This document shows, piece after piece, positions 11,347-62,451 of a stretch of 64,000 bases of DNA. The position numbers and the translations under genes were made by a program. Source of the stretch: Streptomyces sp. Q6 (GTDB lineage Bacteria; Actinomycetota; Actinomycetes; Streptomycetales; Streptomycetaceae). Where the stretch lies: contig NZ_CP146022.1 of assembly GCF_036967205.1 (NCBI RefSeq), forward strand, positions 8,370,001-8,434,000, read 5' to 3'. A model generated the notes under the pieces. That model ran no database searches. It was not told where the DNA came from and saw only the letters and a program-made list of their open reading frames with translations. How positions within the stretch are numbered: position 1 is the stretch's first letter; the number at the start of each line of letters is the position of its first letter.

Positions 11347-11550
11347 ATGGCTACTGGAACCGTGAAGTGGTTCAACGCGGAAAAGGGCTTCGGCTTCATC
11401 GAGCAGGACGGCGGCGGCCCCGACGTCTTCGCCCACTACTCGAACATCAACGCCTCCGGCTTCCGTGAGCTCCAGGAAGGCCAGAAGGTGACCTTCGACG
11501 TCGCCCAGGGCCAGAAGGGCCCGCAGGCCGAGAACATCGTTCCCGCCTGA
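11347..11550 (+). CDS. Cold-shock protein (CspA family)
   Basis: A 67-residue single cold-shock domain. It contains RNP1 (KGFGFIE) and RNP2 (VFAHYS), the nucleic-acid-binding aromatic patches, and begins [18 protein letters not shown] as in Streptomyces SC 7.0-type proteins. GGAGG lies 5 nt before the ATG. It binds single-stranded RNA/DNA in the cytoplasm as an RNA chaperone. It is a single gene followed by a perfect terminator and preceded by a possibly structured leader. Streptomyces carry several paralogues, so no specific symbol is given. Confidence 0.96.
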
Positions 11551-58436: not shown

Positions 58437-59390
58437 ATGAAGCGGATTCAGCGGGCCGCCGGCGTGATCGTCGGCTCGGCGGTGGGCGACGCGCTGGGAG
58501 GCCCCTTCGAGTTCGGTCACCAGGGTGCGTTTTCCGCCCGGTTTCCTGTGACCGATGTCGATGCCGGTGCCGGTGGCGGTGGCGGTGGCGAGATGTGCGG
58601 AGGTGGCGGCTGGGATCCCGGCGAGGCGACCGACGACACGCAGATGGCCGTCCTGGTCGCTGAGTCGCTGCTGGAGCGGGGCGGACTGGATCTGCCGGAC
58701 ATATTCGCCCGCTTCCAGCGGTGGGCATCGTCGGAACCGAAGGACATCGGTTTGCAGACCGAAGACGTCCTGACCAACGGCAGGCCCTGGGACCTCGCCG
58801 CCGCGTTCCACGTCCAGGTCAACGAACGAGCAGCGGGCAACGGCTCCTTGATGCGGGCATCGACCTCCGCGGTCCGCTTCGCTGCCGCCGGCCGGGAAGC
58901 CACCATGGACGCGGCCCGCCGGATCGCTGCTCTCACGCACGGCGACCGCGCGGCCTGGGAAGGAACCGCGATTTTCCACGAACTCGTCCGCGTAACCCTC
59001 GACGACGCAGACCCTCTCGCCGCGCTCCCGGACATCCTGGCTCATGTCCACCCCGACCACCGCGACCGCTACGCCACCGTCCTCGCGCCCCATTGGCACC
59101 CCGACCAGGCGACCGAGTTCAACGGTGCCGTGTGGCCCTGCCTGGGCTCCGCCGTGTGGGCCCTGCGCACCACCGATGGCTTCGAGGACGCGCTACGCGC
59201 GGCGATCGACCTCGGCGGTGACACGGACACCGTCGCGGCGGTGACCGGAGGTCTCGCGGGGGCGTACTACGGCCTGGACGCCATCCCCGCCCGCTGGACC
59301 CAGCCGCTCCATGTCCCCCTCCCCGGATTCGGCGGACGGGTGCTGCACTTGCCGGATCTTCTCCGACTCGCGTACCGCCTCGGGGGCTGA
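58437..59390 (+). CDS. ADP-ribosylglycohydrolase (DraG family)
   Basis: 317 residues. Dinuclear-metal motifs are all present: GSAVGDALGGPFEF (about 13-26), ATDDTQMAVLVAESLL (about 64-79) and DLGGDTDTVAAVTGGLAGAYYG (about 258-279). Such enzymes remove ADP-ribose from proteins or metabolites. A low-complexity GAGAGGGGGGE loop near 43-52 is encoded by a GGTGGC repeat. No ribosome binding site precedes ATG 58437; a TAATCT 6 nt upstream suggests a leaderless transcript. Cytoplasmic. Confidence 0.92.
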   Translation: MKRIQRAAGVIVGSAVGDALGGPFEFGHQGAFSARFPVTDVDAGAGGGGGGEMCGGGGWDPGEATDDTQMAVLVAESLLERGGLDLPDIFARFQRWASSEPKDIGLQTEDVLTNGRPWDLAAAFHVQVNERAAGNGSLMRASTSAVRFAAAGREATMDAARRIAALTHGDRAAWEGTAIFHELVRVTLDDADPLAALPDILAHVHPDHRDRYATVLAPHWHPDQATEFNGAVWPCLGSAVWALRTTDGFEDALRAAIDLGGDTDTVAAVTGGLAGAYYGLDAIPARWTQPLHVPLPGFGGRVLHLPDLLRLAYRLGG

Positions 59391-59772
59391 ACCGGGAGCC
59401 CCTCCACAGGCGGCGCGGTCACCTGACCAGTGGCTCCGCGAGGAGGCCGGCTCGATCGGTTACGACAGACGACGGTCTCTGGCGGCAGGGCCGGGTGGAG
59501 CGAGCTGGGGATCGCCCCGGCGAACCGTTCCTCGCGGGTGGCCGCATCCGCATCGAGGCGGCAGGTGCTCGTGGCGAGGCTCGGTCCGGCTTCGGGGTGC
59601 GTGGCCAGGGGGGGGCGAAAGGTCGCGGAGTCTCACGTGCGCGCGACGGTCAGTCGCGGGCCTGCGCGACAGCATCGCTCCCGTCTTGGGTGGCAGCCCC
59701 GTCATGGGCGGGTGTCCGCCCATGGTCCTGTTTCGGCAGCGTGCGTTTACCTCTCGAACATGCGACTGGAAA

Positions 59773-59817
59773 TCTACTTTGGCGAGAGTAGACATTGTGC
59801 GGCGGTGTGGCTATGGT
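59773..59817 (+). promoter_or_regulatory. Sigma-70-type promoter with overlapping operator-like dyad
   Basis: TAGACA (59789-59794) and TATGGT (59812-59817) are separated by exactly 17 bp, a good HrdB-type promoter. The dyad TCTACT-N8-AGTAGA (59773-59792) overlaps the -35. Predicted transcription start is near 59824. No gene follows on this strand. Confidence 0.65.
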
Positions 59818-60456
59818 TTCTCTCGCAGGTGAGAACGAGCAAGGCCCGGGCAGGCATGGACTGCCCGGTAGCAGTACGTAGTTGAAGTACGCAGGTCGGT
59901 GCGGCGGTGGAGTTCCGGAGCCAGGTTTCTCGTAGGACGGCGACGGGACTGACGGCCGGACCGGGTGGCCCGCAGTGATCAGGGGCTGCCGAGAGCGGGA
60001 CCGTAGTTCATGTAAGTGCATGACCCGGCAGTGAAGTGCGTGGAGTTGTTCCCCGGTGAAGGCGTCTCGCTGCCGACGCGCGCACCGGGAAGTTCGGCAG
60101 TGGGGGTTCCGAGCCAGAGCAGTGGAAGGACGGGCGAGGAGCCGGCTGTCGAAGTGTGGCGCTCGCGCAGGCCACGGAGCAGGAAGCGGAACAAGCAGTA
60201 CCAGCGGTATGAAGTCCCCCTTGCGAAACGCACGATGCGCAGTTGTTCACGCGGGTGAGAACGGAGGAAGCGGCATCATCAGGATCGCCCGGGCGCTGTC
60301 ACCAGGCCCGGGTACCGCAGGACATCGATAGTGAGGTGATCTCCGGTCGAGCAACCGCGATCCCCGCATCCCCCCGCCCCCTTCCGGGAAGTACGTGGAT
60401 GCACGAGGCCGGCGCAGGACCCGGGCCGGCGGATGGTGTAGCTGTTCTGTTCCTTC

Positions 60457-60488
60457 GGGGCCCTGGTGCCACCTGGCACCAGGGCCCC
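60457..60488 (+). terminator. Perfect 14-bp stem hairpin
   Basis: GGGGCCCTGGTGCC and GGCACCAGGGCCCC around ACCT. It lies about 640 nt downstream of the orphan promoter at 59789-59817 and could end its transcript, or serve the leftward symporter gene (stop at 60856). Confidence 0.75.
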
Positions 60489-60605
60489 TCAGACCGCGCG
60501 GGACCGGAGCTCCCCCGGATCCGGTCCTGGCGCGTGGAGCCCTTCTGGCGTGCGGGCGAGGCCGCGTGAGCTGCCTTGTCGCCCGGCCACGTGGCGGAGG
60601 GCTGA

Positions 60606-60641
60606 GGCTGGAGCCGTATTGTCGGCGATACGGCTCCAGCC
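60606..60641 (-). terminator. Perfect 14-bp stem hairpin
   Basis: GGCTGGAGCCGTAT and ATACGGCTCCAGCC around an 8-nt loop, 215 bp past the stop of the leftward symporter gene. Probably its terminator or a structured element. Confidence 0.65.
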
Positions 60642-60855
60642 GAACCCGGTTGTCCCGGCTCGCGGCCGGGCGCTTGAGGGCGATCAGGCCGGGCGGACTT
60701 CGCACAGGTCAAGGCCACGGGCCGGACGGTGCGCTCCGCAGTTCGAGACCCACGGACGATCTGCCTCCACCACGACGGCGCCGCGTGTCCGTCGGACCCG
60801 CCCCGGTGCCTCTCCCGGAGACCGACCGGTCGTCAGAGAACCGGGAACGACCGGG

Positions 60856-62451
60856 CTACGACCGTTCGCCCCCGCCGCCCTGACCTGATGTCACCAGGCC
60901 GTGCCAGGCGCGTTGCCGCGTCTCATCAGGGTGTGTGCGCCCCACGAGTCCGAGCAGGAAGCCCACCGGAATGGTGATCAGTCCGGGCGTCTGGAGCGGG
61001 AACCAGTGCACGTCCTGGTCGGGGAAGACCGCGATGGGCGAACCGGTGACAGCCGGGGACCCGGCCAGCAGGAACAACGTGAGGGGGATGGTCCCGTAGA
61101 CGCTCCAGCGCACACCGGTGGCCGAATACCCCGGCAGGAAGAGCGCGTACACCAGGACCGGGGCGAGCACGGAGGCCGCGACGGTGAACGACAGGGAGAT
61201 CAGCGTCAGCCTGCCGCGGTCCGCGAGGGCGGCCGAGAGGATGACAGCGACAGCTCCCACGAGCACGATGCTCAGGCGCGCCCTGCGGATCTCCCGGGCG
61301 GCCGACGACGTCGAGGCGCTGCGCGAGGCTCGGCCCAGGTCGCGAGTGATGCTGCACGCGGCGGCGAGCGTGATTCCCGCCACGGCCGCGAGGGTGGTCG
61401 CGAAGACGGCGCACGCGATGATGGCGAACAGCATGCTGTGCCGCGCGCCTCCGGCGGCGGGGTCGAGCGCGCCCGTCACCATGAGCAGCGCGGTCGCCCC
61501 TCCGGGGTCGGCTGCCCGGATCGCGTCACGGCCGATCAGCGCACAGGCCCCGAGCCCCGCCACGACCACCCCGGTGCACACGACCGCGACGGGGCCCACG
61601 GCCCAGCCCACGGCGCGTCGCGCGGTGAGGTCGTCCCTGAGCGGGTGCAGGCGCATGGTGAGGTGCGGCAGACAGGCGGCGCCGATCAGCAGGGTGGCCT
61701 GAAAGCTGATCAGGTCGAGGTGGCCTGCCACGGAGGAGCCGAAGTGCTGGCCCGGCCGCAGGTAGTCGGCGCCGGCTCCGGATCGGTCGTGGGCGGCGTC
61801 CACGAGGGCCAGGGGCGACCAGCCGTACCGGGCGAGGACGATGCCCGCCAGCAGCGACAGCGCGATGAGCACCACACCGACCTTGAGGATCTGTACGTAG
61901 CCGATCCCGCGCATGCCGCCGAAAGCGGCGTAGCCGATCATCAGGGCTCCACCCGCGACCGTACATCCGGTGAGCGCGCCGTCCGGGAGGCCGAACATGG
62001 CGGCCAGGATCCGTCCGGCGGTGGTCAGCTGCACCAGGAGCAGAGGAGTGAGGACGACCAGGCTCGCGACACCCAGCGCCCTGCGAACCGACGGATCGCC
62101 GAGCCGGTCGGCGAGGAAGTCGCCCAGGGTGAACGCGCCGACGCGGCGCAGGCGTTCGCCCAGGAACCGCATCACGAAGAACAGAGACAGGACCGTGGCA
62201 CCGGCGAACAACATGCCGTCCGCGCCGTCGAGGGCGACCGCGCCCGTGGTACTGAGCAAGGTCGCCGCGGAGATGTAGTCACCGGCGATGGCGAGCCCAC
62301 CGCCGACCGGTCCGAAGGCCGCGCTGCCTCCCGCGTAGAAGTGCTCGGGGTCGTCCAGATCGGCCGCCGCGAGCCCGCACAGCAGCAGCGACACAGCGAC
62401 GAAGCCGAGAAAGACCACGACCGCGAACGACTGTCCGTCGCCGCCGCTCAC
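60856..62451 (-). CDS. Sodium/solute symporter (SSS family, acetate permease-like)
   Basis: 531 residues with about 13 membrane helices. SSS features: the first helices with AGGSAAFGPVGGGLAIAGDYISAATL, GDFLADRLGDPSVRR, and an unwound TM1-like GLAIAGDYISAA matching cation/acetate symporters (ActP). Substrate is probably a monocarboxylate such as acetate or pyruvate, by family only. GTG 62451 follows GGGAG at 9 nt. The small DUF485 gene often found next to ActP is not present. Inner membrane. Confidence 0.88.
   Translation of the reverse strand: MSGGDGQSFAVVVFLGFVAVSLLLCGLAAADLDDPEHFYAGGSAAFGPVGGGLAIAGDYISAATLLSTTGAVALDGADGMLFAGATVLSLFFVMRFLGERLRRVGAFTLGDFLADRLGDPSVRRALGVASLVVLTPLLLVQLTTAGRILAAMFGLPDGALTGCTVAGGALMIGYAAFGGMRGIGYVQILKVGVVLIALSLLAGIVLARYGWSPLALVDAAHDRSGAGADYLRPGQHFGSSVAGHLDLISFQATLLIGAACLPHLTMRLHPLRDDLTARRAVGWAVGPVAVVCTGVVVAGLGACALIGRDAIRAADPGGATALLMVTGALDPAAGGARHSMLFAIIACAVFATTLAAVAGITLAAACSITRDLGRASRSASTSSAAREIRRARLSIVLVGAVAVILSAALADRGRLTLISLSFTVAASVLAPVLVYALFLPGYSATGVRWSVYGTIPLTLFLLAGSPAVTGSPIAVFPDQDVHWFPLQTPGLITIPVGFLLGLVGRTHPDETRQRAWHGLVTSGQGGGGERS

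Follow-up and report, generated by a model that had tools for sequence, protein, structure and literature searches.

An orphan copy of a putative structured RNA element linked to HspR-like merR genes in Streptomyces

Positions 59770 to 60490 of the window (the whole 64,000-nucleotide stretch of Streptomyces sp. Q6 DNA analyzed here) are, on comparative evidence, a member of a family of structured RNAs that runs from an operator to a terminal hairpin. Comparison across relatives supports the unit itself and, with it, the fold, the operator, and the link to a MerR-type regulator. The explanation that we rank first, and to which we give about an even chance, is that the window holds an orphan RNA-plus-regulator locus, whose intact counterparts would be RNA leaders with a regulatory loop.

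Parts of the element and distribution of the family

The promoter TAGACA-17-TATGGT (59789 to 59817, plus strand), which an earlier note on this DNA had singled out, is one of 2 sigma-70-like sites in the part scanned (58500 to 61500; 0.1 expected), and its boxes and spacing are the same in relatives. The predicted operator, AAATCTACTTTGGCGAGAGTAGACATT (59770 to 59796, plus strand), overlaps the -35 box and contains the dyad TCTAC-N10-GTAGA (59773 to 59792) that had also been pointed out. This dyad is the sole match with at most 1 mismatch across the window (0.26 expected); 22 of 100 shuffled sequences hold one as well, so the dyad by itself is unremarkable, and it is as part of the operator that it is conserved in relatives. 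The reported fall in GC content around the promoter was likewise found (0.59 at 59700 to 59899; flanks of about 0.65 to 0.75).

The predicted transcript of about 667 nucleotides (59824 to 60490, plus strand) is supported by homology to the element 5' of merR in relatives and by covariation, its start and end being predictions. All of its parts lie on the plus strand. The internal hairpin described earlier is present near the 5' end (59845 to 59868) and is kept in relatives. Stem module A (59894 to 59965) comes from the consensus fold, and stem module B (60084 to 60155) is probably its duplicate: gapped local alignment of the two scores 35 (maximum of 30 among 500 base-composition shuffles), and this repeat, absent from the list of an ungapped repeat finder, is visible by gapped alignment only. 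The most conserved part is a 3' domain (60263 to 60452) with outer helices P1 and P2 and an inner core of P3 to P5 and P7. It is followed by a terminator-like, perfect 14-bp hairpin (60457 to 60488; −35.8 kcal/mol; z = −6.97), as the earlier note had claimed; the hairpin has no T run, and in relatives the merR ribosome-binding site comes next. At the corresponding place in the window (60491 to 60605, plus strand), neither a ribosome-binding site nor a start codon was found, and no trace of merR remains. The fold of the whole stretch (59824 to 60492) is moderately above shuffles (z = −2.45; 20 shuffles); given this and the unremarkable dyad, the case for the element rests on conservation. Beyond it lies a second long hairpin without a T run (GGCTGGAGCCGTAT...ATACGGCTCCAGCC; 60606 to 60641), which may end the minus-strand transporter gene at 60856 to 62451.

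Sequence searches found a second, shorter RNA copy at 6.92 Mb in the same genome and matches to the stretch in 133 of 150 Streptomyces genomes. Many of the matches listed cover query positions of about 29 to 751, corresponding to 59768 to 60490 of the window, at roughly 70 to 77% identity (others are partial), indicating that the element starts at the operator and stops at the hairpin. Matches also occurred in 62 plasmid records (60 Streptomyces, 1 Embleya, and 1 Kitasatospora). To follow the core, we used a covariance model, R1, built from 33 rows; it scores 94.2 bits on window positions 60272 to 60368, a match that is partly by construction since the window is among the rows, and the blastn support is independent of the model. 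Scanning 60 Streptomyces genomes with R1 gave 103 RNA cores in 52 of them, and in a class-level sample of 296 genomes the RNA was found in 58, spanning 15 of 114 genera. A phage origin was rejected, with no match among 50,697 phage records; 65 viral contigs carrying a 16-base core pattern gave no match to R1 at an E value of ≤0.01 (0/65).

Between the -10 region and the start of merR (or its equivalent position) lie 345 to 901 nucleotides (142 sequences, window included). A hallmark of the stem module was counted in 110 RNAs of the Streptomyces set: 38 have a single copy, 59 have two, and 6 have three; the locus L002 has one. The window RNA seems to have two modules and the short copy at 6.92 Mb one, and such differences in copy number would account for part of the length range. 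An annotated hypothetical protein that overlaps the start of one plasmid RNA copy (L041, 5783 to 6055) is probably a misannotation.

No known RNA family in Rfam 15 fits the element. The window has no match at the gathering score and nothing credible at an E value of ≤5, and within the RNA no family was found in 18 relatives, nor in L002, L163, and L176 at an E value of ≤0.5. Two Rfam matches lie outside the RNA near distant loci: a cobalamin riboswitch (L176, 2027 to 2171) and a group II intron end (L151, 2228 to 2305). An RNA of this kind is not named in open-library listings with the starts of abstracts, and a description in print elsewhere is possible.

The search for covariation that the earlier note had proposed was positive. 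Rows at least 93% alike (alignment A2, of the 3' domain) or at least 92% alike (full length) were removed before counting. The consensus fold of the 3' domain has 50 pairs, with 98.0% of cells paired across 92 non-redundant sequences (67 from the Streptomyces set and 25 distant), compared to 35 to 47% for slid versions of the fold. Two-sided changes affect 22 of the 50 pairs and 147 cells (11.0 and 28.4 in shuffles, respectively), and none of 500 shuffles reached either value. Full-length RNAs of the Streptomyces set (56 non-redundant of 83) gave a consensus of 190 pairs, 40 of which show two-sided changes (shuffle mean of 17.7 and maximum of 23; 200 shuffles). Of 110 Streptomyces-set loci, 108 have a hairpin stem of 12 to 15 bp (G-U allowed), as do 30 of 31 distant loci. 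The motif GCAGUA is enriched throughout, with a mean of 5.3 copies per Streptomyces-set RNA (0.32 in shuffles) and 1.2 per distant RNA (0.15 in shuffles); it occurs at least three times in 100 of 110 and 6 of 31 of these RNAs, respectively. These counts bear on a possible CsrB-type protein sponge RNA, a type defined by numerous copies of one short motif that binds a protein; in the 4 RNAs folded, GCAGU sites were not clearly more unpaired than the remaining positions.

The same alignments speak to whether the stretch might contain a short unrecognized peptide gene, one of three options left by the earlier note. Chance open frames do occur in G+C-rich DNA, but when the window is compared with 82 other copies, 90% of the indel runs have a length not divisible by three; moreover, in 57 of 83 copies it is the minus strand that has the longest complete frame, and paired positions covary. 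A conserved protein-coding frame was looked for across relatives and not found. We therefore rejected a peptide gene, which is now highly improbable.

The operator and the MerR partner

Five annotated plasmids have a gene for a MerR family regulator of about 112 amino acids immediately after the hairpin. The same gene was found in 29 of 29 further loci fetched by their RNA (L009 to L037) and beside the 6.92 Mb copy. The partner protein passes the Pfam family MerR_1 (37.5 and 37.1 bits; gathering score of 21.6). Its best NCBIfam match is HspR (NF047375; E value of 2 × 10−9; residues 16 to 102 of 112), and an inverted-repeat operator at its own promoter adds to the likeness. However, it scores far below the HspR cut-off (37.1 and 36.7 bits, compared to 105), and the genome encodes a true HspR elsewhere, at 4.48 Mb (148.8 bits). 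The operator of the RNA-merR family also differs in sequence from the HspR site.

The linkage also holds when loci are fetched by the protein, with some RNA match upstream in 78 of 80 (the best 80 of at least 577), although for L115 this is merely a 55-nucleotide piece and for L046 and L063 merely the 3' end. The resulting set of 115 MerR loci includes L009 to L042 (34 loci) and L002, which were fetched by RNA, and leaves out L003, L004, L123, and L124. Among the 60 Streptomyces genomes, MerR lies 135 to 188 nucleotides 3' of the core for 91 of the 103 cores; 12 cores, that of the window included, are without it, and 34 of 125 MerRs have no core match. In the class-level sample, MerR is present in 65 genomes and in 57 of the 58 that bear the RNA, the exception being G356 (Fisher P of about 5 × 10−51, relatedness ignored). 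The hairpin is separated from the merR start codon by a median of 26 nucleotides in the Streptomyces set and by 19 to 40 nucleotides in distant loci, with one at 73.

The operator follows the consensus AAATCT-N12-GTAGACA with a -10 box of TAnnnT, to which the window copy conforms. A fuller form, AAATCT[A/G]T-N10-GTAGACAT, lies over the -35 box in 111 loci of the Streptomyces set and in 31 distant ones. These loci had been prefiltered by their TAGACA-17-TATGGT score, which dropped 12 of 154, so the -35 and -10 letters of the consensus are partly selected by the filter and the AAATCT half is free of this selection; L115 was additionally left out of the RNA-element comparison. At one locus (L199), the operator is a perfect palindrome. 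A scan of the 9-Mb genome of the strain found two exact sites and no site with a single mismatch, and both exact sites are RNA promoters. A wider regulon in this genome was rejected (98 matches at ≤3 mismatches; 106 for a reversed-pattern control), and no operators were recognized ahead of neighboring cold-shock genes in the fetched loci with the strict pattern. In two loci (L208 and L215), the RNA is gone and the operator-promoter is kept right before the merR start. There it lies about 50 to 60 nucleotides 5' of the start codon, and the transcripts are apparently leaderless. We infer that the MerR of this family binds the operator. If so, the lone MerR at 6.92 Mb, the only family member in this genome (E value of ≤10−8) beside its 2 RNA cores, would be able to control the window copy from a distance, in trans.

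In the window, tblastn found no merR match in 60450 to 61500 at an E value of ≤1 and none across the whole length at an E value of ≤0.01; we call the RNA an orphan because merR is absent directly downstream. Two further options of the earlier note, a regulated noncoding RNA and the control region of a lost gene, are partly supported and prove to be the same thing, since a structured RNA with its operator-promoter normally precedes the merR gene that is missing here.

Gene neighborhood and temperature

Cold-shock-type neighbors were found at 43 of 86 Streptomyces-set loci within the fetched flanks (mostly 2.5 kb per side). By type, 33 loci had a cold-shock gene, 29 a DEAD-box helicase, 22 an SCO5918-type gene, and 18 a CBS-domain gene, and all 114 scored matches are co-oriented with merR (114/114). 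Such neighbors occur at 4 of 33 distant loci, and SCO5918-type neighbors occur at 5 of 22 fetched MerR loci that lack the RNA. On one annotated plasmid, the gene order is cold-shock, DEAD-box, CBS, SCO5918 family (a name confirmed by NF038312), two opposite-strand genes, RNA, and MerR. The window itself contains a cold-shock gene (11347 to 11532) with 92% identity over 62 amino acids to neighbors of RNA-merR loci; it lies 48 kb from the orphan RNA.

Related genes of Streptomyces coelicolor have been studied, in part with respect to temperature. SCO4684 to SCO4688 are described as cold-shock, DEAD-box, two uncharacterized, and MerR-type genes (PMC6637917, PMC9534924). A cluster of the cold-shock type also includes SCO5917, for which the largest gain in polysome association is reported when 42°C is compared with 30°C (PMC6009599), and Bucca et al. 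propose a thermosensor within the coding part of such genes. SCO5917 is also listed as down-regulated upon acid shock, as is hspR (PMC2631018). From homology to HspR and numbering adjoining SCO5918, it follows that SCO5917 would belong to the RNA-linked MerR family. It may itself be without an RNA, given the 5 of 22 RNA-less MerR loci with SCO5918-type neighbors.

Leader, trans-acting RNA, or relic

According to the explanation ranked first, a single promoter overlapped by the inverted-repeat operator would, at an intact locus, yield a large folded RNA ending in a strong hairpin, with the small HspR-like merR gene starting about 20 to 40 nucleotides 3' of it. MerR would bind the operator and limit its own promoter, and most transcripts would stop or be cut at the hairpin, leaving a stable RNA. 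A temperature shift may then cause read-through or improve access to the merR start, so that MerR is made and the loop closes, a step that the neighboring cold-shock and DEAD-box proteins may assist. The constant placement right before merR in most loci argues for such action in cis, as do six truncated loci (L195, L198, L200, L201, L214, and L216) in which merR is preceded by just the 3' tail of the RNA and its hairpin. The cold-shock-type neighbors and the reported polysome gain of SCO5917 also speak for this explanation. Thermosensing leaders and attenuators of the cspA type offer a precedent, being long leaders found among cold-shock genes, with a hairpin by the ribosome-binding site; however, the cspA leader is roughly 160 nucleotides, the RNA described here is several times longer, and switching in it by ligand or temperature, as in a riboswitch or RNA thermometer, is a proposal. 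Several observations count against a leader: the MerRs without a core suggest that the protein can manage without the RNA, L208 and L215 have lost it, RNA-only units exist, the hairpin lacks a T run so that termination is only predicted, cold-shock neighbors are few at distant loci, and SCO5917 may itself lack the RNA and is reported among acid-shock down-regulated genes (PMC2631018). The departures of the window copy from the consensus, set out below, count against it as well. The order of promoter, RNA, hairpin, and small protein gene is also that of type III toxin-antitoxin systems; this candidate was rejected, as the downstream protein is of the MerR_1 DNA-binding type and not a nuclease toxin.

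A tentative alternative, compatible with the leader, is that the RNA itself does the work, as a large ornate RNA or ribonucleoprotein ending at its own terminator, with MerR a mere dedicated regulator. Orphans like the window copy would then be live RNA genes. The length, modularity, and GCAGUA richness of the RNA favor this, as does a group of 5 genomes (family f18) in which six tandem RNA-only units (L313 to L318) lie 5' of another RNA copy that has a MerR in 5 of 6 cases (G409 being without). Each unit has its own operator-promoter and a 14- to 18-bp hairpin (G-U allowed), the hairpins differing in sequence, and the unit cores show 14 compensatory changes (5.7 expected). However, pairing in these cores is looser, 43 pairs being broken (52.4 expected at random; the counts come from automatic addition to alignment A2 and probably overstate breakage), and two score merely 59.4 and 42.1 bits. 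The 11 other Streptomyces orphans cut both ways. Three lie at contig ends, and the 8 that are readable all retain the hairpin (8/8), a retention that is partly selection because orphans were found by their RNA; yet these 8 resemble decay, with merR lost or degenerate and a mismatch or bulge in 3 of the hairpins. Like the large RNAs OLE, GOLLD, and ROOL, the RNA is several hundred nucleotides long and richly structured, and OLE lies close to the gene of its protein partner; the RNA described here differs from them in lacking an Rfam match at the gathering score and in its tie to a DNA-binding regulator. A fuller version, in which a large modular RNA of Actinomycetes acts in trans as a stable RNA or ribonucleoprotein, is remodeled by the adjoining cold-shock protein and DEAD-box helicase under one MerR switch, and has live RNA-only units driven by a MerR elsewhere, is possible but rather unlikely. 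It is unlikelier still, and a matter of the window copy alone, that the family is real and this copy is a dead relic, untranscribed or without a role. Its merR is lost, it deviates at 5 of the 132 near-invariant columns (3 of 67 rows, window included, deviate at least as often), it breaks one pair kept by the other 91 rows, and it has 2 GCAGUA copies (mean of 5.6); still, 48 of the 50 pairs are intact, and so are the operator, the promoter, and the hairpin. These features suggest a mildly decayed copy, and deletion of merR right after the hairpin is its simplest history. Under the leader explanation, the window RNA may still be transcribed and controlled, since promoter, operator, and nearly all pairs are kept, and the control would come in trans from the lone MerR at 6.92 Mb.

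Rfam 15 lacks a large structured RNA that 52 of the 60 Streptomyces genomes searched carry and that spans 15 of 114 genera in the class-level sample, and the RNA-merR element offers structural studies a new target among large RNAs. The regulator's S. coelicolor relatives, with the same gene order, are in print for heat-induced translation with their role unassigned. If the SCO5917 leader carries it, the RNA would be a concrete candidate for the cause of this published translational control.
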